Translations under genes and position numbers: made by a program
From: Liolophura sinensis
Taxonomy: Eukaryota > Mollusca > Polyplacophora > Chitonida > Chitonidae
Assembly: GCF_032854445.1 (NCBI RefSeq)
Contig: NC_088305.1
Span: forward strand, 2,547,001 to 2,611,000
Direction: 5' to 3'
DNA: 64,000 nucleotides
The notes under the pieces: model-generated
What the model was told of the DNA's origin: nothing
Databases searched by the model: none
Seen by the model: only the letters and a program-made list of their open reading frames with translations
In this document: positions 3,604 to 27,600 of the stretch, in pieces
Layout of the letters: every line of letters starts with the position of its first letter
How positions within the stretch are numbered: the stretch's first letter is position 1

Positions 3604-6600
3604 CTGCAAAACAAAAGCAGTTCCACGTAGAGATGTGATTTTGGTCAACAAAAAAAAAGAGCTGGATTTCAGTTTGCTATGTCTAAACTACAGCACAGGG
3701 TCCAGTTTTTGTCACCTAATTTGATATCTCACATCTAAAAATCAGCATCACCACAACTAAGAGTTGGTGGAGCACACTACTGAAGGGGTGAATATCTCTG
3801 AATCGATTACTCTAGTTCATAACCATAAAAATATTTATTTTTTTGCCAATAAATACTTTCGCTGATGTTGCAAATGAAACAATGGATTTGTAAAAAAAAA
3901 ACAAAAAACCCCAAAAAACGAAATTCCGAGAAATTGGGCAAAAATCAAATGCCTGAGGAAAGACTGATCTGGGTTTAACATGACATTGGCAGTATTTTAG
4001 CCATATTGTGGTGAGAACATGTTAGGAATTGCCTCTTGACAGGAGAACACAATGTCTTAAATGATATGAGCCCATTCTGTTCTCTGGGCCCACAGGGGAG
4101 GGCTGAGGACCCATTCTGTTCTCTGGGCCCACAGGGCAGGGCTGTGGACCCATTCTGTTCTCTGGGCCCACAGGGGAGGGCTGTGGACCCATTCTGTTCT
4201 CTGGGCCCACACGGGAGTGATGTGGACCCATTCTGATCTCTGGGCCCACAGGGGAGGGCTGAGGACCAATTCTGTTCTCTGGGCCCACAGGGGAGGGCTG
4301 TGGACCCATTCTGTTCTCTGGGCCCACAGGGGAGGACTGAGGACCCATTCTGTTCTCTGGGCCCACACGGGAGGGCTGTGGACCCATTCTGTTCTCTGGG
4401 CCCACACGGGAGGGCTGTGGACCCATTCTGTTCTCTGGGCCCATAGGGGAGAGCTGTGGACCCATTCTGTTCTCTGGGCCCACATGGGAGAGCTAAGGGT
4501 TAATCACCATTTACCTGAAAGTTCACCCAGAGTCTTGAAGTGATATTCGTTTATCCCAGAAGTGAATCTTGAAAAAAACACTGACAGAGTCTACACTTAC
4601 CTGCTTCACATCCTGACTATCCAAAATAATCACCGAGTCACTCTGTGAGGCTTGTCTGAGGAGAGACGTCAGAAAAACACTAAACCTACTGGTGTATGGA
4701 AGACGATTTTGTATACTTAATGGAAAGAATAGCTTCACTGATAACCTCTAAACTGAAATATAAATTTGTTATTTTTGTTTCCTCATTACCCCAATATTTC
4801 ATGTGAATTTTCCATTAATGACTAGAAATGGTTGGAAATAATATCAACGGTTAACCTGTCATCTTAATCTATTGATAACGCTCTGAATTGAACAGACAAG
4901 CATGACAACTGGCTCAAAACAATTTTTCTTATAGGTTTTAAAATTATAACAAACAGTCTTTACATTTTTGACCTGGTTTGAGTTAATACGAACCTTGAGT
5001 GTTACTATACCAACTTATTTATAAAAAAAAACTTAAGTTTGATGACATACTGGACAGAAGATGAACAGTTTACCATTGCACTTCTGTTTTTCCAAGGAAA
5101 TTTAACATACGCACAATAGCATAGATAATGTTTCTAACAGCTATGACACTACATTTGTTTTACAACACGTAGAGATTTAATATGTATGAACTTACTCATT
5201 TTGTGTATCCGTGATGAAATGTGCTGACAAACTGACATCTTGGGATTGTTCCAGGTTGTTATACATGGCAGGCAGAGTGCTAACAGACAAAAGAAGTCAG
5301 TTAAAAATTACTCTAAAAACCTAAAAAATTCGACCACAAAAGAACATTTTATAGGCAAATAAATGTTATATTACCTCTGATGGTAAAAGTTATATTTTCC
5401 CAGTAGGATATTTGAACTACTAATTAGCTAACTACTTGAACAATTGAACTGTTATTGGTACAGAGGTTTCCAGGTTTTCAATTTGAGATAGCTAGCGCAC
5501 TCTGTTCAATTATATCTGTGTATGTATGAATGCTTGGAGTTAAACATTGTACTTAACAATGTTTCAGTTTTGTTATAACAAGGAGTCATTAGTGTGTGTA
5601 CATATACTGTGCTTTCTTGTGGGGCAGAGTGCTGCCACCACAGAAGTATCTTGCTGCAGACACCAGCCAAGACACCCTTCCCAGCCACATTATACCGACA
5701 CCAGGCCAACCAGCCCTGGAGCAGATTCCACAAGGGCATTTCTGACTTAAGTCAAAATCTGAAATACGATCTCAAACATTACTTTTGGGTTTTAGAAATT
5801 AAAACTTTGTGATTTGTGGAATGGGCCTCAGTTTCGTTACATCTCAGTGCTGAGTGCCAAGTGAGACCATAAACAGCTGGCGAGGCTCGCGTGCCTGTTT
5901 GCACAGTCTAATCCTAACACTGTGCATGTCTAAATACCGCCAGTAACATGCCAAAGGTCGGTGGTTTACCTTGGTTACTTCAGTTTGCTTCACCTATAGA
6001 ACTGACTGCCATTGCATAAGTGAAAATTCTTAAGCATGGCATTAATACAGCTGTCAACCAAATAAATTTATCCACAACACTGGCAATCTGTGTAGCAAGG
6101 CAATTGCGGAAATGGACAAATGTGAGGTGCCGCACCCCGTCTCTAGAGCAACCAATCAAAGGAGTAAATAAATTACCTTCTTTCTCTGAGCACCTCCTTC
6201 TGATGATCGGTCAGAATTGTTTTGTGTTTGGGAGATGGCGCTATTACAACAAAGTCCTGAAACAGTCACAATCAACCCAGGGGTTAACAATTTATACGAA
6301 AGGTCATAACGCACTGTCATACACACTAACATTGATTTATTTATTTATTTGATTGGTGTTTTATGCCGTACTCAAGAATATTTCACTTATACGATGGTAG
6401 CCAGCATTATGGTGGGAGGAAACCCACAACCATCCACAGGTTGCTGACAGACCTTCCCGCGTACACAATGACACTGGGGTAACTAGAAATGACATTGCTA
6501 CAGATGGCGAGCGAAAAAACAAAAAGGACACCCCAACTGATAGTGTCATGTTTTACTTTTGTTGCACTTCTGAGCACATGAAGAGTGCTGATTATATATA

Positions 6601-9600
6601 AACAGCTCCATGTAAACTGGTGCATATGCATGTTGATGCCTTATCTCTTGTATCTGGTTCCTTCCTTTACCGGACGTACAGTCTACACTGTACCTCACCC
6701 CGTCATTCCTTTACAGGACGTACAGTCTACACTGTACCTCACCTCATCATTCCTTTACAGGACGTACAGTCTACACTGTACCTCACCTCATCATTCCTTT
6801 ACAGGACATACAGTCTACGCTGTACCTCACCTCGGCATTCCTTTACACGACATACAGTCTACACTGTACCTCACCTCGTCATTCCTTTACAGGACGCACA
6901 GTCTACACTGTACCTTACCTCATCATTCCTTTACAGGACATACAGTCTATACTGTACCTCACCTCAACATTCCTTTACCGGACGTACAGACTACACTGTA
7001 CCTCACCTTGTCATTCCTTTACAGGACATAGTCTACACTGTACCTCACCTCGTCATTCCTTTACACGACATACAGTCTACGCTGTACCTCACCTCATCAT
7101 TCCTTTACAGGACGTACAGTCTACACTGTACCTCACCTCAACATTACTTTACAGGATGCACAGTCTACACTGTACCTTACCTCATCATTCCTTTACCAGT
7201 AACACCAAACTCATTCCTTTACATGTACCTCATCTCTCAAACCTGGCTCATTCCTTTACAGGACATACCTCATCCCTTATATCTGATTCATTCCTTTACA
7301 AGGCATATCGCTCAAACCCGATTCCTTACATTACAAGACATACCTTACACTTCTCATTCATTCTATTACAGGACATACCTCATCTCTCATATCTGACAAA
7401 GACAGGTTTTTCTTGGCTTTGCTAACTGACGTTGGCTTGCTGTCAATCTTTGGAGCTAGGGGTCTGGCTGGCGACTTCTTGATGTTTGGGGAGACGGCCT
7501 TGTTGAGGAAGCTCCCGCAGACTTTGCGAGGGGACGGCATACCTGGGAGATGTGGTTCTGGTGCACATGATCCTGCCTGCCAGACACACACAACAAAATA
7601 ATTTAGTTTTAGGAGAGTTTTTCTTTGGCAAGGGCCATAAGCTTACTCAACAGATGGCAGTGTTGCTATATATACATGTAATGGAATAAAATAATTTATA
7701 TGATTGAGGTTTTACTCAAGAAAATTGGACTTGAACAACGACAGACAACATTATAGTGGGAAGAAAACGGTATGAAACCCTAAACCATCCACAGGTTGCT
7801 GCCAGACCTTTCCACGTAAAAACCGTACCACAAAAACAAAATGGCTAACACCAGTCACAAAACTAAGTTCAATGATTGTCTCACTGACTTCAAGCCACTG
7901 TAAATATGAACCCTGTACCACTTTCATGGCCGAAAAGAAAATCACTGCCCTCCTTACATGTGGTTGGTTGTGTACAATATGTCCGGTCTACAGATCAGCC
8001 CACACTATATACGTACAACATGCTGGTTTTCAATTTGAAGGCTCTTCCAGACCCAAGCACTTAAGCTCCTTATTTCAAAGTTCGAAAAAGGCCATGAAAA
8101 GCCTGGGACCTTGAAAACACTGAAAAGCCTGCAACCTTGAAAATATTGAAAAGCCTGGGACCTTGAATATATTGAAAAGCCTGGGACCTTGAAAACATCT
8201 GAAAAGCTTGGGACCTTGAAAACATCTGAAAAGCTTGGGGCCTTGAAAACACTGAATAGCCTGGAAAGATGAGGGTAATAATTCTGCAGTTTTTTCACCT
8301 AGCTAAACTGACCGACGGGTATTTCCTCTATGACAGGTACATCTGACAGAATCCATCCAGGTATAATAATGGAGGAAACAATTTTCACCAGGCTAAATTC
8401 ACTAAAGGGCGTTTCCTCTACAACAGGTACATCTGAGGAAATCCATCCAGGTAAAATTATGCAGGTAACAATTCTCACCTGACTAAACTGACTGATGGGT
8501 GTTTCCTCTACAACAGGTACATCTGTGGAAATCTATCCAGGTAAAATCATGCAGGTAACAATTCTCACCTGACTAAACTGACTGATGGGCATTTCCTCTA
8601 CAATAGGTACATCTGTGGAAATCCATCCAGGTAAAATAATGCAGGTAACAATTCTCACCTGACTAAACTGACTGACGGGTGTTTCCTCTACAACAGGTAC
8701 ATCTGTGGAAATCCATCCTGGTAAAATAATGCAGGTAACAATTCTCACCAGGCTAAACTGACTGATGGGCATTTCCTCTACAACAGGTACATCTGAGGAA
8801 ATCCATCCAGGTAAAATAATGCAGGTAACAATTCTCACCTGACTAAACTGACTGATGGGCATTTCCTCTACAATAGGTACATCTGTGGAAATCCATCCAG
8901 GTAAAATAATGGAGGTAACAATTCTCACCTGACTAAACTGACTGACGGGTGTTTCCTCTACAACAGGTACATCTGTGGAAATCCATCCAGGTAAAATAAT
9001 GCAGGTAACAATTCTCACCTGGCTAAACTGACTGATGGGCATTTCCTCTACAACAGGTACATCTGTGGAAATCTATCCAGGTAAAATAATGCAGGTAACA
9101 ATTCTCACCTGACTAAACTGACTGATGGGCATTTCCTCTACAACAGGTACATCTGTGGAAATCCATCCAGGTAAAATAATGCAGGTAACAATTCTCACCT
9201 GGCTAAACTGACTGATGGGCATTTCCTCTACAACAGGTACATCTGTGGAAATCCATCCAGGTAAAATAATGGAGGTAACAATTCTCACCTGACTAAACTG
9301 ACTGATGGGCATTTCCTCTACAACAGGTACATCTGTGGAAATCCATCCAGGTAAAATAATGGAGGTAACAATTCTCACCTGACTAAACTGACTGACGGGT
9401 GTTTCCTCTACAACAGGTACATCTGTGGAAATCCATCCAGGTAAAATAATGCAGGTAACAATTCTCACCTGGCTAAACTGACTGATGGGCATTTCCTCTA
9501 CAACAGGTACATCTGTGGAAATCTATCCAGGTAAAATAATGCAGGTAACAATTCTCACCTGACTAAACTGACTGCTGGGCATTTCCTCTACAACAGGTAC

Positions 9601-12600
9601 ATCTGAGGAAATCCATCCAGGTAAAATAATGGAGGTAACAATTCTCACCTGACTAAACTGACTGACGGGTGTTTCCTCTACAACAGGTACATCTGTGGAA
9701 ATCTATCCAGGTAAAATCATGCAGGTAACAATTCTCACCTGGCTAAACTGACTGATGGGCATTTCCTCTACAACAGGTACATCTGTGGAAATCTATCCAG
9801 GTAAAATAATGCAGGTAACAATTCTCACCTGACTAAACTGACTGACGGGTGTTTCCTCTACAACAGGTACATCTGTGGAAATCCATCCAGGTAAAATAAT
9901 GCAGGTAACAATTCTCACCTGGCTAAACTGACTGACGGGTGTTTCCTCTACAACAGGTACATCTGTGGAAATCTATCCAGGTAAAATAATGCAGGTAACA
10001 ATTCTCACCTGACTAAACTGACTGACGGGTGTTTCCTCTACAACAGGTACATCTGTGGAAATCCATCCAGGTAAAATAATGCAGGTAACAATTCTCACCT
10101 GACTAAACTGACTGATGGGCATTTCCTCTACAACAGGTACATCTGTGGAAATCCATCCAGGTAAAATAATGGAGGTAACAATTCTCACCTGACTAAACTG
10201 ACTGACGGGTGTTTCCTCTACAACAGGTACATCTGTGGAAATCCATCCAGGTAAAATAATGGAGGTAACAATTCTCACCTGACTAAACTGACTGACGGGT
10301 GTTTCCTCTACAACAGGTACATTTGTGGAAATCCATCCAGGTAAAATAATGCAGGTAACAATTCTCACCTGACTAAACTGACTGATGGGCATTTCCTCTA
10401 CAACAGGTACATCTGTGGAAATCCATCCAGGTAAAATAATGGAGGTAACAATTCTCACCTGACTAAATTGACTGACGGGTGTTTCCTCTACAACAGGTAC
10501 ATCTGTGGAAATCCACCCTGGTAAAATGATGGGGGTCTTCTCTTTGACTTTCACCAGTATTGGTCTACAGAAGGAAAAAACATCCACAGTTAAATCAGTT
10601 TATCTCTAACTTCAAAACCTTCATGTGTATAAAAATGCAGTCTTTAAATTCATGTCAATATACCAAGTCTCCTTAATTCCACTTTTGCATGTTTCTTCTT
10701 GTTTTGCACCTATTCATGCAAACACCTGTACTTTGTTTTTTCCCTTTTTACACATTCACACAAAGCTGCAATGGGTTTACAGAGTATAAAGTGAAATTTT
10801 TGTACTTATTTGATTTTTTGAAACAAAAATTATTCATAAATATCACAATAATCTTTCATGAACAGTACAGTTAAAACAGTTCATTTTACATGTGAATGAA
10901 CTCAGCTTTGCTATGGAAAACAAAACCCAATGCTAAAAGGTAAACTTTCCTTTGATTGCATGGGGTGGGATGTGCTGGGGCAAATCAATCATATTAACAC
11001 GGGCAGGTATATACAATAAGTAATATTATTCATGATCAATTTTATCACCTGAAGTATTTATTTTTAGCGGAATTGCAACGTAATTCAGGTAGTTGAAGTT
11101 TGTGGATAATTTTCATTACTGTGTATACCCTAATTCCTCAACTTTTACACACATAAACGAACAACTTTCAGTGCAATTTATGCACATTTTTGATTTGGCT
11201 TTCGGGACAAAACTACATTGGTTGGGTTGGCCAATTTATGAACTTTTCTGAATGAAAAGTGTAATTTTATCAGTCTACACAGAATAATGCATTGAGAATA
11301 TGCTTGATTAAACACCTTGCAAACATGCGAAAACGTTGAAGAATGACAGTACCAAGCAATGTTAAAATGCAGTGATTTACCAAGTGTGTCAGAAAGTGAC
11401 ATCGCATCACTAAGGGCATCACCACACTGCTGTAACAGTCACAACTGGAAACCCTCCTATATTACATGAAAACATTCATCAGGCTAACACTTACTTCAGC
11501 GTTTCGGGATAAACAAGGGCCAAGGATTTACTGAAGGTAGAATTCCACAGAAGCACGGTCTGAGTCTTAATTTGTCTCCGAGAGTGAGGGAAGGTTACCT
11601 CCAGCAAGGGAGATAACTGGCAGAGAAAGTCTGTGTCGTAACCACCTGTGTAACGTGTCTGTAGACAGGTGGCGACATCCAGCCAAAGCTTCTCCAGCTG
11701 TAAAATAAAAAGTTGAAAGAATTAAAAATCTCATTACAGGAAAGAAACTGGGACCAAAAGATTTTGAAAAGTAAACATCACATGATAAAGAGCTGGAATA
11801 GAATAAAAAAAAACAACAAAAGTTGAGCCTTTCTCAGGTCACACATTTTGCTTGATTCTGATTGATTCATTCATTGTATAGCACTACCTAAAAGTCTTTG
11901 GTGAAGTTTAATTAATTTCTCATCATCAAAACTTGAGACTTGTTATCAATGTGGTGCTGAAAGCGCATTTTCACAAACCAAAACTTTAGCTGAAATATAC
12001 TACATAAAAACATGGATGAATACATAACCATTTCACCAGCCAATGAAGTTCACTTGGTCTAACCAGTCCTTTACAGAGAGTCTGTTTTCCTGTGCTTTTA
12101 TTCTATTCAAGGTTAACTTCCAGACAGCAAGATTGAAAAGCTTGAACTTCGGTATAAAATTACTGTTTTACTATGTCAATTCTTTAAGACCTTATTTAGG
12201 TGAACTACAGACCTTTTGTTGGAAGGAGGCAGGGTAGGCAGGTGCTCCTTTGCTGCTGGCTAACTGAAACAGCATGGCCATTGGTTGAGCAAGTTTGTCC
12301 ACCAAGCAGCCAATGATCTGTGAGGAGGTCACATGACTGAACAATACTGTCAACATTCCCACAATGCAACTCCACACTGAGAGAATCAAGGCTTGGTTCT
12401 TCTGTGGAAAAAAAACAAAACCAAAGCTACAACCAGATTCAGATCAATGCACATTTATATCAGTCATATTGATCATCTTTTTTCACTGTCCAACTTTAGA
12501 ACCAGAGATAAGATTATGGTCAAGAAAAAAATTAGATTTTTGTTCACTATGTTTAAGCTACCACACAGGGTCCAGTTTTTGTCACGTAATACAAAACACA

Positions 12601-18600: not shown

Positions 18601-21600
18601 ATTATTAGCTACATGTAAATAAACTGTGACGTATTTCATGTAAGCTTACATGAAGAACCTCCCCTCCTCCTATCTGATAGGCTGTAGAACATAGGGCCTT
18701 TCTGGGCAGACAACAAACTGCCTGGAAAAGTTTCTGAAATAAACAGAGAGGAATGTAATGAAAGATGCAAGCATTCTGAAAATTTATTATTATTTGATTG
18801 GTGTTTTACACCGTACTCAAGAAAATTTCACTTATATGAGATGGCCGCTAGCATTATGACGTGCTAACCATCTCGACCATGGAGCCCCTCCTCCTGCAAT
18901 ATGTGTACCCTACCGGTCTGAGCTTTCCAGTGTGGCCCTAATCAAATTGTAGCTTGGGTATTTTGTAAAGTGAATTCATTTGATTATTGAAACAGTGGTT
19001 CTGATTGGTTCACAGGTTTGACCTCTCCAGAGAGGGATCATCGGACAGGCTGGGAAAAGGTGTTTTTATGAACTAGTAATCTACACCATCAGCATGAGTA
19101 CCAATAACTACTGTATTTGGCGTAAAAATTCAACAAAAAGAGCATTTTCAGAGGCAAAATGAAAGTAAACTAATTGACCTATAATTCTGTAAAATCTTTA
19201 ATGGGTGGATGTAGTTAGGCCACCAACCTTTGCCAAGGTACATGTGAGACGCACTCATATGCACACCGTTCTGGTCAAGACAAAGTTGTCTGCATCAAAA
19301 GTTGTGCTAAAAGACCCAATCTTTATAAAATTAAACAAATCGTTTCTCTACACCCCATAGTCAAAATGTAGGTCACAGAGGCTGAAGGAATGGTTGAAGA
19401 ATTGGAGTAATTCAGTGAGGCCAGAGCTATGAGTGACACTCATTGGTTACTCACCAGCACTTTGCTGTAGTCCATGGTCTCGCTGAGAAGGATCAACTGG
19501 AATGTGTTCAGGAAGGACGTAAGAACGTCTCGGCTCTCCGACTTGGCCCCAGACTCCACAACATTTTTCACGTGAGCCACAAGAGAGTACCAGATGTGAC
19601 ACAACAATCCCTCTGGTGGGACAACAGAAAACAGCAAGCTAATGTCAACTACAGTTTACTACAGTAAATGTTTTGAATTTTTCAAAGCAGTCTGCTTATT
19701 TGGAAAGTAGCATAATATACTACTGGAAAAATATAAGTTTTAGAACCAAAAGTAATCTTTTGTATTACATTTATAAACTTCTAAAAATCAATTTCATGGG
19801 GCAAACTTTTAGATGCAAGGAATTTCAAATGCAAGAAAACCATTTTTTCTACAGCCGACTTTAAGGCAAAATATAAGGCTTTTAAACATGCTCTGTATTT
19901 CTAGGGATACAGAATCAATGCTGATTGGCTGAGTGTGGAGACAGGATTTCCTTAGTTAAACCTTGCAGCCTTGGTCACACTTGAATAAATATACCATACC
20001 TAAAATTCCGCTTAGTCAAGGCAAAGCCTGGATTTGCCTATCTCTTTAACCAGCCAATCAAAATCGATTCTGTATTCCTTTACATACATATTCATACACC
20101 AATCAGAGCCTATCTCTCTAACCAGCCAATTAGGATGTATCCCTTTACATACATATTCATACACCAATCAGGGCCTATCTCTCTAACCAGCCAATCAGAA
20201 TGTATCCTTTTACATACATATGCTTACATCAATCAGGGCATGTTGAGTAGCTAGGGCTACACCAACTTAAGTTGACATTTTACAGGCAGAATAAATCTTT
20301 ATTCAGTGCCAGGTGACAGGATATAAGTACAAATAAAAACAATATTTTTTATTGAATTTTTTTCACAAACTTTGGGTACTAAAGACATCAACACAAATCC
20401 AATATCGAGAATCAAGAAAACCCCTAAAATTAGACATTAAGAAATTAAAATGAATCAACTACTTCTTGATACTCAAGAATCAGTAAATCATCAAACCTTG
20501 TATATTTTGTCCCTGGCTGATTAACAACTCTTTGGCACAGGACAAAATGGTGGCTGACTGCTTCAGGAAGAAGGCTGGCCCTGTCATCACCTCTGTACTC
20601 AGGGGCTCTGTGGATAAAACACACTTGCCTCTGTAATGTGAGCTCTTCCAAAATACCTACAGGTTTGGTCAATTAATTTATTCATTTTATGAATTAAGGC
20701 TTAATAGTGCTATACTATCACATATCAATGGCCCAGAGGAAAATCCCAAAAGGGCCATGCTGAATTACCTCCCTTGAAGTCACACTCCTGTTTAAAAGTT
20801 TAAAGCAGCATTAGAGACCTAGTTTTATCACAGATTTTAATTTGTAAACTTAAAAGAACCAATAATCGATGTGTAAAACTGAGTGTAAAACTCAAGTTTG
20901 TAGTTAAAAAATGAATATCAGAGACCTTTAGTTCACTTGTAACTTCAAACTAGAATAGGCTTTTATTTGTTGATAAAAGTTACAAACAAGTTCTAACGGA
21001 AGGTCTCTACCTTCAGTTAAAACCCTGTTATACTGTGTTACACATTAATTCAGCTAGATGGGTGTTTCGGTGTCTTCAAAACACCTAATGCTAGGGAAAA
21101 TAGCTTGAAAAGGATAGGAAAAGAGAAACAAAAGTGAAACTCGCGCACCTAAATCTGACTAAATTTATGCACACTACTTTTCCAAGACTAATGACAAAAC
21201 ACCTTCACTTTTCAGGCCCTTTAACTCCTGGAAAGTTACCTGTACTTTCAATTCCAGTCTTTTCAAGGTTCAGTACGAACAAGGATGTAAATACACCGTG
21301 ACATATTACCAATAGAAACAGGACTTTTCCAAGTTAAACTATAAAACAGCCTGAAGTTCGAAGGGGCGTTTATAGATTTTCAAGGACCATCACAAACCCT
21401 TATGTACACACAAACCTTTATGTACTCCCATTACCAATGGAAAAGGGCACTCTTCCAGGTATGATTATACAACACCCTGGATTTCCAGGCTTTTCTAGGC
21501 CATGCCCTGACCCTGTTTTCACTGAAACACTTTACCTATGGAAAACTGGACGGGAGTGATGTCCTCGTCCGGGGGTATCTCCCCCAGCAGCCTGGCTAGC

Positions 21601-24600
21601 ACCTCACAGCCCTTAAGCTGGAGGGAGGGAAGGTCGGCAGTTGGGAGCCAGGGTTAGACAAGTTCAGCCTTGGAGTGATAGGACTCGTGCCTGCAGTCAA
21701 CATACCTGCAAGAAAATACAAGATGCAATGTGACTAAACTGCAAGTCCTATATCTTTAAAGTTACAGTGTAAAAATTACAGGTAAAGCAAACACTGCAAA
21801 GTAATCATTGGATTCTGTAAGACGGGTTGCAGGTTGGCGGTCACGTGACCACCCTTTCATGTCTAAAACAAAATGGGCCACCCAGTGTTAAAGCATTGGG
21901 GAAAAGGTCACTTCTTGCCACTTTGTCGCCACGATATGGCTGAAATATTGCCGCTGTGGCGTTAAGCCATAATCATTCATTCATTCTTGCCACTTTGCTA
22001 GCGACCAGTAAGGCCTATTTTCACGTCACTAAAGCTCTGCACAAATACTCAAGACATTCTGGAAAGCTGAAAATCATGCAATCCATTGGATACAAGATCG
22101 CTGGTAGCGATTCAAAAATAGGCATTTTCCAAGGCAATAAAGTTGAGAGGACCGTTTTCTTCACCCACCCATTGTTACTAAGGAGATCATGTAGTCTCCT
22201 AGCTTCTGATCCCTGTTAAAAAATAAACTATGTAAATATATTGTCACGTATTTCCTATAATTAATTACAAGTTCAAATATTTGCATTTTAAGGCAGGTTT
22301 TTGGGACTGTATTTGTATTGGTAGGTTCAGTTCATAATCCAGACTCCAGGAAAAGTTCTGTAGGCTCACACTAGGACTGCACTGAATGACCTCCCTTATG
22401 TCACTCTCCTGTCAAAAAGGTGCGTTTTAAGAGTAAGCTGTGCTTAGGTGGACCTCAGAGAATGACCAATTGCAAGTTTAGGAGTTAAATCGGCATAAGA
22501 TATTTGAAGACCTAGTTTAAGACAAATTTTAATTTTTGTAAACTTATTTGGAAAGCCTAGAAAAGATGTTATGTATTTTTTAAATCGATTATTACAAGAT
22601 TTTAAAACTCTGGATCTAGTTAAACAGCTTCGGTAAACTCAGGCTGAAAAACATTTACTTCACTTAAGATCTCCCGATATTTCTGCAGCTCTTTAAAAGG
22701 CTGATATAATATTCTTACATCTTGTTGCAAAGACAATATTTTCGTAGCCTAACCTACTTATTGTTTGCTTTAATAGATGAGATCCCACTTCTCGTAATTT
22801 CACAACTCATAGTCGCTGTCGTGTAACAAGCCAGATAATTCAGGGCAATTGTTAAACTGGTTATTCAAAATTGCATATTTGGGGGAAAATGTATACCGAG
22901 TCTGTCAGCAACATGCGGATGGTCGTGGGTTTCCCCCGGGCTCTGCCCGGTTTCCACCCACCATAATGCTGGCTGCCGTCGTATAAGTGAAATATTCTTG
23001 GGTACGGCGTAAAACACCAATAAATAAATACACTGCAGAGCTGTGATTTTTGAGTAATTTTAACTGGTATCACATACCTTGAATAAAAACTTGTGAAAGA
23101 ATATTTAAGTTAATCAAAACTAACCATACGAACCCTTCGCTTTTATTATTCCAGAACATTTCAGAAATGTTCTAAGAATATGTAAAAAAATTCTACACCG
23201 CTTATCAACAAAATATATAGCAAACAATCGTCAGTACCTATCCACTCATTTGGTGACACCATTTTGCAATGATCTAGCTATCTAGAGTGACGTCACAAAA
23301 CCTAATATCCAGCTAAAGAGTATCAGCTCTGTTCCTTTTAGATTGGCACTTGCTCAGGGCGATGTTCCTAGACACAAGAGTCTTGTTCTGCTTGTACTCA
23401 TCCTGCATGGGTTTAAGCATTTGGCCTGGCTAGCTGAACTGACTTTCACCAATTTACCCAACATAGCAGGACTTCTGATTCATAATAGACTCTTCATTCA
23501 GATTTTTGAGAAGATATTTTCGTAATAAAGCTGACTTTGCTAAGGAATAATAACAATATTTTTCTTCAGGCAATTACTTTCAAGAGGCCGTTTTCTTCAA
23601 AGTTTACCATCACAAGTTACCGCAGTATCTTGCCCAACATGTACACGTTGTGGCACGGCCCGCCAATGTCAGTTCCCTGCTCACAAATGTGTTGTCCAAA
23701 ATGCAAACACTTAAACTAACCGCAAAATCCAATTTATTGCATCATCATCTGTCTATCCACTACATGAAACCACATTGAGAACTGAAGGCTAATAGTTTTT
23801 TTTGACGTGACAGCCAATTATCACGTGATGCTGGCAGAGCTTGTGATTGTTCAAGTTCATAAAGGCTTCTAGAACATGGCTCCAAGTCTGTCAGTGCCAT
23901 ATCCCCAATGCTGAAGCTCATCTTCTCGGTTTTTCAAACCTTTGCAGAATTTTTTTTTACATATTTTTTCTGTGATAGCTGTATCCTGTATAATTTTCTC
24001 CATGTATATAGAGTGGCAGACTTTATGTTCACTCTAAGCTACGAGAAATGTAACACCCAGGTTGTGAACTGACCCATTCATTCACTCAACAGCTCCCTGT
24101 CACTTACGTTTCTCCCTCCACTCTCTCCTTCACTCAACACCACTCTCCTCTCCCAGAGGTACAGATGTCATACGATCCACTCAACAGCATACAGATAGAG
24201 TTAGCACCCTTATCACCCATGCACCCACCCGCCAATTTCTCCCCATTACTTGGTGTGCTCCACACACATCTGCAGGAAACACACACACACTCCTGGGTAC
24301 AGAGATTACCACACAGGCCAGTGTGTGTCAGGCACCTGAACAAGTGAACACCTGACAATGGTACTTACCGACCCTTGAGAAGGTGGGTGTGGTCAGACTC
24401 TGGGCCACATTCCCCCCTAACTTAGTGGAGCCCACACACATCTGCAGGAGAGGAACACGCACTCATGGGTACAGAGATCACCACACAGGCCAAATCAGGT
24501 GTGTCAGGCACCTGAACAAGTGAACACCTGACAATGGTACTTACCGACCCTTGAGAAGGTGGGTGTGGTCAGACTCTGGGCCACATTCCCCCCTAACTTA

Positions 24601-27600
24601 GTGGAGCCCACCCACATCTGCAGGAGAGGAACACACACTCATGGGTACAGAGATTGCCACACAGGCCAAATCAGGTGTGTCAGGCACCTGAACAAGTGAA
24701 CACCTGACAATGGTACTTACCGACCCTTGAGAAGGTGGGTGTGGTCAGACTCTGGGCCACATTCCCCCCTAACTTAGTGGAGCCCACACACATCTGCAGG
24801 AAACACACACACACTCATGGGTACAGAGATTGCCACACAGGCCAAATCAGGTGTGTCAGGCACCTGAACAAGTGAACACCTGACAATGGTACTTACCGAC
24901 CCTTGAGAAGGTGGGTGTGGTCAGACTCTGGGCCACATTCCCCCCTAACTTAGTGGAGCCCACACACATCTGCAGGAAACACACACACACTCATGGGTAC
25001 AGAGATTGCCACACAGGCCAAATCAGGGGTCCTCAGGCACCTGAACAAGTGAACACCTGACAATGGTACTTACCGACCCTTGAGAAGGTGGGTGTGGTCA
25101 GACTCTGGGCCACATTCCCCCCTAACTTAGTGGAGCCCACACACATCTGCAGGAGAGGAACACACACCTGCAGGAATAGAGCAGTTTAAATTTTATGTTA
25201 ATTTGGGAACACCATGTATTGTAATTTCTGGACAATATTTTGGTGCATCGAAAATTTCCAAGGCGTATCTTTACTGAATATAAAGGTCACTAAATGAATC
25301 AGGTAAGTTCATTGGGTCATTGACTCATCAAGTATTGATGGTGAAATGAACATCTTAGTTCGTTTAAAAACATTAAATGCGGCGAAAAATGTCGTGATAA
25401 GGGGGCAAAGATTACTATTAAATATTACCACTTGCATATCACTTGCAGACATTTTTTTAAGGGCATTCAAAATCCTGGAACTGTTTTTTCAGAACAATAT
25501 CAGCAATTAATTAAAGCTGTGCATCAACATCCTTTGCCAACTTGATTTTCACCTGCGCATGAAATCATAAATTTTACTTATTTTTCTTCTCATTATTAAA
25601 CCAAGCTGCATTTACCTGATCAAAATATAAAGACAATTTAGGTCCCAGACAGCGAGTAAACTGCCACCAGACGGCAAATTTCTTCTCTGCCACGGACTCA
25701 ACTTTGGCGTTGTTAATCTTGAACACTTGCATAATCAGCTTCACTCTTTTTGCATCGCAAATTATGTCTGAAACAAAATGCAGCCTAAATGTATCCACAG
25801 TCGCAGACTTATTATTACATGTACAACTGGTCAAAAATAGTTTGTTAAAAAATGTTTGTCTTTTCAAGGTATGGAACATTGCATAAATTGTTTAGTTTCA
25901 CAAAATCATTATATTGTCAAAATATATAAACAGAATATTGCACCGTTAAGTTTGAATGCCATAAATATTTTTCTTACCAAAGGTGGAAATGATATCCCAC
26001 CTGATGTTTTGTGTCTCATCATGTACACCTGTCACTCCAATAATCTTTATGGTACTTCACCATCACGGTGCAATTTCCTCTATACACACATTCACCTTAC
26101 TCACCGAGGAATAGAACACACGAGGAACAAGAAGAACATAAAACAACATAAAGAAGCTTTACCTGGATTAAGGGCGAAGTTTTCAATGAGGTGTTTCCAC
26201 GCCTGGAAGGCCTGACATTTCACCTGAGGGCAGGGACTCTTAAACCCTAACTCCACCAGGGGTAAGATGTGATTGATGAAGCTCCCACTGTGCAACACCT
26301 GAAAAAAAAAACAACACCACAGGCTTATGTATAAGGCATTACAGAAACTAAAGATTCTGAGATTCCCCCACTGAGTGTTGGGCAGAGGAGGTATAATACA
26401 TTTAGAACAAAAAAACCCACTAGACTGAACGTATGTATACACTGATGAAGTATCCCACATGAAGGGTAAAAAATCGTAACATTTAATTTTTGTGAGGTTG
26501 AATAACCTATATATTTCTGTTTTAAGTAGGCAACAACGCACACACGTAGAGAATCGTTAACACCAATTATCAATTTTAATCAATCAGGCGCAAGTTCTCT
26601 CTTAACCTGCCGACGTAGCTATGCTGCATACGTCACCTGAACCATATTTTGCCTTTTCACCATATGCAGCAAGGATACCCGCTCTATCGCCCGTTGTTCT
26701 AACATGGTGCATCCCATGGCCTTTCAAGAATTCTAGATATTGGGGACCAATTTGCAGAGTTACCAATCACGTCAGGTCCTTTAGGTCTGTTTCTACTCCT
26801 CTTGTGAAATAACTTATGTTATCACCATGTGATCCACACAAGCATGTTACAGGTATGTGATTATGGTTAAGAAAAAATTATCAGAGAGGTACCACAAGAG
26901 GTCCAGTCCCCGTTACCTAAGACAAAACAATTATTTGATATATCACTGCCAAAAATCAATATTACCACAAATAAGAGGTTATGAAGCACCCTCCTGAAAC
27001 ATCTCTGAATCGATTATTCTAGTTCATAAATGTAAAAAAACATAACATTTTTCTTCTAAAATAAATACTTTCTATTTCTGTTGCAAACAGATCCATGGAT
27101 CTGTGAAAAAAACGGATTTCCACCATATTTGCAGAAATATCACATGCTGGTCCTACCTTTCCCAGAATCTGTACAACAAAAGACCATACTGACAACACAT
27201 ACATCTCATTCTTGGACTGGAACAATTTTGTCATCTCAGATATCCATTTCTGAAAAGCAGCAAATTCGAAACTATAAACATCGTTTTTTCAATTTTCTCA
27301 AATGTATTTTAGGACTTTTAAGAACTCTCAAGAACCTGTTCGAGCCCAGACATTGCTGAGAAAAAACAACTAGCCTTTGGCAAATTACACCGACGGACCA
27401 ATGTAAACTTCATCTGAAAGTTTTTACGCTCCATTTTTTCCAAAAATCCTGCAGTCAAAATTGACCATGATTGAGAACTATGGAACACCTTGGATGTTTC
27501 TGACATTACAAACTTTTCTTATTCCACACCTAGTGTTTTTTATATTCGAATGGCTTGTCCTTCAGGTACATGTCCTTCTGCATGAAGTTAAGCTGGCTAC

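Follow-up and report, generated by a model that had tools for sequence, protein, structure and literature searches.

Tandem repeats lying across splice boundaries have been described in amphioxus under the name of mirages, and amphioxus is the animal for which we located such arrays in the literature (PMC3087553; PMC3902484). The accessible parts of these two reports describe mirages in Adh3, the globin genes BflGb6 and BflGb9, troponin C, and PGBD5, with units of 150–160 bp in BflGb6, 157 bp in BflGb9, and 108 bp in PGBD5, and the mirages reportedly leave normal splicing undisturbed. The present study concerns a minisatellite at RIF1 exon 9 in the chiton Liolophura sinensis, located in a stretch of 64,000 nucleotides (the window; NC_088305.1, positions 2,547,001 to 2,611,000) whose numbering is used below. 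As far as the amphioxus systems are described in those parts, they share with the RIF1 array the tandem units across an exon–intron boundary, the authentic boundary at one edge, a similar unit size, and copies with splice-site-like AG and GT; additionally, the BflGb9 mirage and the RIF1 array both duplicate an exon's 3' end. In RIF1, the unit spans the exon–intron boundary, and the authentic boundary is that of the edge copy, copy 1. The RIF1 array differs in belonging to a mollusc and not to a cephalochordate, the term mirage being used here structurally and not taxonomically, and in that nearly the whole of a small exon is contained in the unit, so every copy is exon-like. Splicing, length variation, and somatic instability have been studied for the amphioxus mirages; the chiton array is described here from its sequence.

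Three further systems are comparable in part, again as far as the accessible text of each source goes. Mutually exclusive exon clusters also contain exon-like copies in tandem that break the frame when included together; in the RIF1 array, joint inclusion is likewise unproductive, but copies 2–5 probably lack a true acceptor, have not diverged so as to encode different protein segments, and are part of a minisatellite. The models of intron gain by tandem duplication of splice boundaries (the Rogers model and the mirage model, Figure 7 of PMC3087553) likewise supply spare splice sites for new introns or exons, although the RIF1 array carries no sign of a recruited copy. In the earthworm metallothionein gene, exon-4 duplications yield extra exon copies reported to be missing from the final transcript, and minisatellites occur in introns; unlike the RIF1 array, the earthworm repeats are placed in intron 1, and their description does not have them crossing an exon boundary (PMC12783039).

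Tandem Repeats Finder identified the 176-bp minisatellite at 24260–25167 on the minus strand (5.2 copies, 96% matches), and a five-copy array of this unit at 96% is not attributable to a chance match. A genome search, covering one haplotype, did not find a second locus of the 176-bp array elsewhere, whereas arrays as such are common in the surroundings, where 70 of them occupy 48,463 of 264,000 bases. The host gene on the minus strand is RIF1, with the array at its ninth coding exon: the Pfam family PF12231 (Rif1_N) was found at two places genome-wide, both within this gene, and the exon 7–9 peptide scored 56.6 bits against it (cut-off 23), compared with 55.1 bits for the exon 7–8 peptide alone. 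A PDB search with exon 8 returned a single, unrelated match (E 0.55). The earlier note was right as to RIF1, exon 9, the five copies, their coordinates, and the 73-nt length. It is extremely unlikely that an assembly error made the array longer or shorter than it is in the animal. Assemblers can misjudge tandem arrays, and exon 10 of this assembly contains a frame break, but the PacBio HiFi reads used (mean length 8,347 bp, 14x, according to the available part of the source) far exceed the 0.9-kb array, the copies differ at distinct sites, and a degenerate copy is present.

Concerning the extent of exon 9, the sequence most likely contains an authentic exon of 94 nt at copy 1 (25074–25167, minus strand; VCVPLLQMCVGSTKLGGNVAQSLTTPTFSRV(G)), which enters in phase 0 and leaves one base over, based on the open frame from E1 to E9 and consensus splice sites. 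Exon 8 (25616–25767, minus strand) ends in ...SLYFDQ in phase 0, and the RIF1 frame is continuous through E1–E9 into exon 10 if exon 9 is 94 nt long. The outer acceptor ctctattcctgcag (25168–25181, minus strand; score 10.3) occurs at copy 1 only, and a branch-point-like TTAAC, identified as a motif match only, stands 31 nt upstream of it (25197–25201, minus strand). The 21 nt that follow the outer acceptor, GTGTGTGTTCCTCTCCTGCAG (25147–25167, minus strand), code for VCVPLLQ in copy 1, and the copies of these 21 nt form the 'acceptor' of copies 2–5. The earlier note had the repeat carrying the whole exon with its acceptor; what it took for the acceptor at copy 1 reads as the VCVPLLQ coding sequence, and the true acceptor probably lies 21 nt further upstream, beside copy 1 only. 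The donor gtaagt of copy 1 is at 25068–25073 on the minus strand (TCGGTAAGT, 8.8). The minisatellite unit, therefore, most likely consists of most of exon 9, the donor, and approximately 83 nt of intron 9; the acceptor of the exon is not part of it.

The score against human RIF1 rose from 284 to 313 once VCVPLLQ was added, and the human counterpart of this segment is presumably VCVPLIQ, while the tblastn piece spanning VCVPLLQ was weak by itself (E 1.4). The Rif1_N profile ends two residues into exon 9 (56.6 vs 55.9 bits), so it does not help in choosing between 94 and 73 nt. A yTnAy motif 15–50 nt upstream was found at 17 of the 22 mapped RIF1 acceptors and at none of the five inner sites; since the motif is also missing at five mapped acceptors, and copies 2–5 have CTGAT at 54 nt, this contrast is supportive, not decisive, as an argument against inner acceptors.

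The 73-nt segments of the five copies lie on the minus strand at 25074–25146 (copy 1), 24897–24969 (copy 2), 24721–24793 (copy 3), 24545–24617 (copy 4), and 24369–24441 (copy 5, at the array edge), as placed by the copy alignment. Across the 73 columns, the only variable site is that which gives MWV instead of MCV in copy 4, as had been noticed earlier for one copy, and four of the peptides are identical while the fifth differs at one residue. The two versions of the pyrimidine tract were also confirmed, the alternative one being that of copies 2 and 3 and of a degenerate copy 6. This sixth copy, starting at about 24269 and absent from the earlier note, occupies approximately 24240–24290 (minus strand) and has a CTGCAG acceptor-like site and an MCV start followed by stops, with no donor.

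The claim that all copies are splice-competent stands for the donors, which are identical (TCG/GTAAGT in 5/5 copies), and for the CTGCAG acceptor-like sites (5/5), and does not extend to the outer acceptor, the likely true one, present at copy 1 only. The inner acceptor-like sites score 9.2–10.6, compared with 10.3 for the outer acceptor and 5.1–13.6 for the gene's own scored acceptors; thus, the inner sites could be used cryptically, with copies 2–5 as frame-breaking cryptic exons. As had been predicted for two included copies, adding any of copies 2–5 to exon 9 gives a TAA, at the seventh codon of the added copy. Any single copy of the five keeps the frame open across the first 89 nt of exon 10, and if exon 9 is skipped, the third codon read in exon 10 is a stop.

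A mutually exclusive cluster, in which exon 8 is spliced to one among five equivalent copies, would account for a frame that any one copy keeps into the start of exon 10 and two copies break. We regard this arrangement as very unlikely, given that copies 2–5 have neither the outer acceptor nor the codons for VCVPLLQ, that the five peptides are alike bar one residue, so the choice would change at most one residue, and that the sibling arrays at other exons, with units of 22 to 91 bp, are too short for whole exons. The main reading of the earlier note, an intact exon present five times and usable singly in the manner of such a cluster, is therefore unsupported as the leading explanation, the outer acceptor and TTAAC being found at copy 1 only; the scores of the inner acceptor-like sites, which fall among those of the gene's own acceptors, speak in its favour.

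An array of poison exons is improbable, although less so: here, copies 2–5 would often be recognised, a sizeable TAA-bearing share of RIF1 transcripts would decay, and the copy number would tune the RIF1 level. The good donor and acceptor-like site at each copy and the stop created by exon 9 with any of copies 2–5 are consistent with it, and the branch-point contrast given above speaks against it, with the same reservation. The lower variation of the exon part is also of little help to it: variable columns numbered 1/73 in the exon part and 12/83 in the intron part among the five copies (P 0.003), but 1/73 and 5/83 without edge copy 5 (P 0.22). Purifying selection on the extra copies is not established by these counts, as its signal is present only with the edge copy included.

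The arrangement of the copies suggests instead that the exon 9 array is probably a donor-side mirage, with the real exon at copy 1 and copies 2–5 leaving as intron 9. Copy 1 runs on into the upstream acceptor, and copies 2–5 do not. The founder unit would have covered nearly the whole of exon 9 together with the 5' splice site and some 83 nt of intron 9; short GT-rich stretches in the exon start and the intron may have let slippage or unequal exchange begin, and the same processes could then have spread and homogenised the copies. The spliceosome would join the outer acceptor to the first donor, that of copy 1, and copies 2–5 would be removed within intron 9, leaving most mRNA normal, while in a minor fraction of transcripts a 73-nt copy may be included, which would bring a premature stop. 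Expansion on the donor side would be tolerated because the real exon retains the sole true acceptor and the nearest donor.

The mirage reading is supported by RIF1 exons 22 and 23, an ABCB exon, and a NOP9 exon, which share the layout. In RIF1, a second exon-end array (90 bp x 24.9; 8295–10531, minus strand) has its gene-5' end as the 3' part of exon 22 (10459–10564, minus strand; ...VPVVEETPVSQFSQ before gtgaga), the first part of which comes after an exon matching human RIF1. A third array (6662–7379, minus strand) has a 44-bp core at 6662–7196 and degenerate copies that reach the donor of exon 23 (7379–7576, minus strand; ...SDMRDE before gtatgt), an exon proposed from an open frame and splice sites only. 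The peptide of exons 21–22 matched one unrelated Pfam family weakly, and the frame is not kept between exons 18 and 19, where the gene model must lack an exon or a boundary. The ABCB-type exon has an array of 91 bp x 35.6, and its peptide matched Pfam ABC_membrane (2.6e-14) and ABCB1 in the PDB (2.6e-24). The NOP9 exon lies on another chromosome-size contig and has a 73-bp array (PUF_NOP9, 1e-11). The peptide before a 22-bp array (73521), which we took to resemble ABCB, gained no support for ABCB from Pfam and PDB searches.

Whether arrays are in excess at RIF1 donors is a matter of the null chosen. Three of the 22 donors are inside arrays, which is the chance level if the 17% array cover of the gene is used (P 0.75) and an excess against a founder-unit null (P 0.007; P 0.056 without exon 23). 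None of the 21 acceptors is inside an array (P 0.019), a count that treats the exon 9 acceptor as lying outside, even though the called interval includes the first base of the exon. A donor motif of at least 9 bits occurred in 9 of 70 array units, compared with means of 3.1 in shuffles and 2.7 in non-array segments, and nine was reached by 0/200 of each. One of these nine is the RIF1 exon 9 array, scored via an opposite-strand site (the true donor has 8.8), and three others (189839, 154232, and 142293) have no exon support.

The acceptor-side screen gave 29 candidate peptides from 11 of 85 arrays, and none of the ten peptides compared with Pfam, representing 10 of the 11 arrays, passed the cut-off; one weak, chance-like YqgG match (E 0.017) appeared. 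The donor-side screen gave 11 peptides from 7 of 85 arrays, eight of which, covering all seven arrays, were scanned with Pfam: NOP9 passed, an amino-acid-transporter match stayed below the cut-off (15.5 vs 25.6 bits), and the other six had none. Two hand-chosen peptides were added to the donor-side scan, from the ABCB exon, which passed the cut-off, and from RIF1 exons 21–22. As the automatic donor screen missed the RIF1 exon 9 and ABCB 91-bp arrays, and donors were inspected harder by eye, the donor–acceptor contrast is not a fair count.

These data carry an amphioxus curiosity into a mollusc, within a conserved DNA-repair and replication-timing gene. With several further cases in 314 kb, three questions come within reach of testing: a possible preference of minisatellites for 5' splice sites, the reason why this analysis found no acceptor-side cases, and the way in which spliceosomes pass over surplus sites. 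It is a long shot that minisatellites in this chiton repeatedly start at 5' splice sites, as genome-wide donor-side mirages that arose in molluscs independently of amphioxus, and that some, such as that of RIF1 exon 9, yield near-complete cryptic exons whose number sets the loss to decay; if true, the number of copies would act on gene dosage like a dial, and the arrays would be a lasting supply of new exons. For annotation, array copies can pass for intact exons.

Exon 10 (21536–21705, minus strand) has an internal frame break in the assembly, which was absent from the earlier note, and the reading frame of E1–E10 as assembled consequently ends at a stop after 425 codons, even if only one copy of exon 9 is included.

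The minisatellite lies in RIF1, since Pfam Rif1_N has two matches genome-wide and both fall on the minus strand of the window. Ten exons with consensus splice sites were mapped, with 358 codons open up to exon 9 in a frame that aligns with the human RIF1 sequence. The earlier note had named the gene and numbered the array exon as exon 9, and both assignments stand; it is the ninth coding exon. Tandem Repeats Finder placed the array at 24260-25167, with a 176-bp period, 5.2 copies and 96% matches. On the minus strand, the 73-nt segment named in that note was found five times, and its 73 columns hold a single variable site. In 5/5 copies the donor is TCG followed by GTAAGT, and the tract ahead of CTGCAG comes in two versions; a degenerate sixth copy follows. 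In the whole genome (632 contigs, 609,464,459 bases), the 176-bp unit gave at least six matches, every one within the array or at its edge, the count being a lower bound as the search ignores very common words. The genome paper (PMC11068029) describes the assembly as built from HiFi reads (mean 8,347 bp, 14x); in a subsequent correction its authors changed the species name to Liolophura sinensis (PMC12441733).

The start of exon 9 most likely differs from the one proposed earlier, which was the CTGCAG site present in each copy (the inner sites). A second, outer acceptor, ctctattcctgcag followed by GTG, lies 21 bases upstream of it, beside the gene-5'-most copy (copy 1) only. The intervening 21 nt are in frame and encode VCVPLLQ, aligned opposite VCVPLIQ in the human protein; the local alignment scored 313 with this peptide and 284 without it. 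TTAAC occurs 31 nt upstream of the outer acceptor, and a TTAAC-like motif was found at 15-50 nt in 17 of 22 mapped RIF1 acceptors and at 0 of the 5 inner sites. Simple scores failed to tell the sites apart (outer 10.3, inner 9.2-10.6, other scored RIF1 acceptors 5.1-13.6). In our reading of the sequence, exon 9 would comprise 94 nt (25074-25167), and its first 21 nt, once copied into the intron, would be a chance acceptor look-alike.

With a single copy, translation enters exon 10 in frame. The predicted stop upon double inclusion was confirmed: when one of copies 2-5, whichever it is, follows exon 9, TAA appears at the seventh codon. Skipping exon 9 gives an immediate stop. Exon 10 (window 21536-21705, minus strand) breaks the frame internally as assembled, so that exons 1-10 stop after 425 codons, and its parts matching human GTPRMNLS and IPSIQLLG lie in different frames; this break may be an error or an allele.

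The array anatomy, the frames and the sibling arrays were observed directly, and we infer the remaining steps. GT-rich stretches may have given rise to the array, either through slippage or through unequal exchange between them; the outer acceptor would pair with the first donor, copies 2-5 would be spliced out together with intron 9, and occasional inclusion of a copy would lead to a premature stop. The exon parts of the copies were less variable than the intron parts when edge copy 5 was included (P 0.003), and this contrast was gone without it (P 0.22); therefore, a function of the extra copies is unsupported. The same structure is described for amphioxus mirages, minisatellites spanning an exon-intron boundary, in PMC3902484. 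Among the papers listed by a literature search with incomplete journal coverage, none described arrays at splice boundaries in any animal but amphioxus. The available text on an abalone gene places a minisatellite within an intron with no mention of boundary spanning (PMC6905558), and minisatellites have 0 occurrences in the available text of a comparative chiton genome paper (PMC12005716).

In the 264 kb around the window (contig C11:2347001-2611000), 70 arrays (period ≥15, ≥3 copies, score ≥150) cover 48,463 bases, about 18%. Five scattered 10-kb pieces, at a slightly looser limit, held 13 arrays (5,792/50,000 bases). RIF1 carries two further exon-end arrays: 90 bp x24.9 at window 8295-10531 (minus strand), copying the end and donor of exon 22, and a 44-bp array after exon 23, whose degenerate copies extend to the exon 23 donor. 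The length of the exon 22 unit is divisible by three and the frame stays open across several units; splicing from a donor further along this array would therefore add residues to the protein without a frame break.

Elsewhere, a 91 bp x35.6 array (C11:2415653-2418889, pieces L015-L016, minus strand) copies the 3' portion of an ABCB-type transporter exon together with its donor; the exon peptide matches Pfam ABC_membrane (2.6e-14) and solved ABCB1 chains (2.6e-24). On another contig (C9, L033:1-932, minus strand), a 73-bp array copies the final bases of a NOP9 exon (match 1e-11) along with its donor. A 71-bp array follows an amino-acid-transporter-like exon with a family match below threshold. 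In all of these arrays (RIF1 exons 22 and 23, ABCB-type, NOP9 and amino-acid-transporter-like), the 5'-most copy is the authentic exon. A 22 bp x45.4 array (C11:2420521-2421525, L016, minus strand) follows a possible transporter exon ending in TFAYYYI, for which Pfam and PDB gave no support.

Strong donor motifs (at least 9 bits) occurred in 9 of the 70 units, including the exon 9 array through an opposite-strand site, against means of 3.1 in shuffles and 2.7 in non-array segments, and 0 of 200 in either control reached 9. At 7 bits, 18 units compared with means of 12.1 and 9.8 (reached by 5 and 2 of 200); at 8 bits, 13 with 6.3 and 5.8 (1 and 1); at 10 bits, 6 with 1.4 and 1.5 (1 and 0); and at 11 bits, 3 with 0.5 and 0.7 (2 and 5). 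Within RIF1, the outcome for an array excess at donors varies with the null chosen. Any donor preference would likely reflect tolerance by selection.

Among the other repeats, ACACCAATCAAATAAATAAATA, presumably a short-element tail of the kind found in mollusc genomes, gave six matches with at most 3 mismatches, at window 6338-6359 and five other places.
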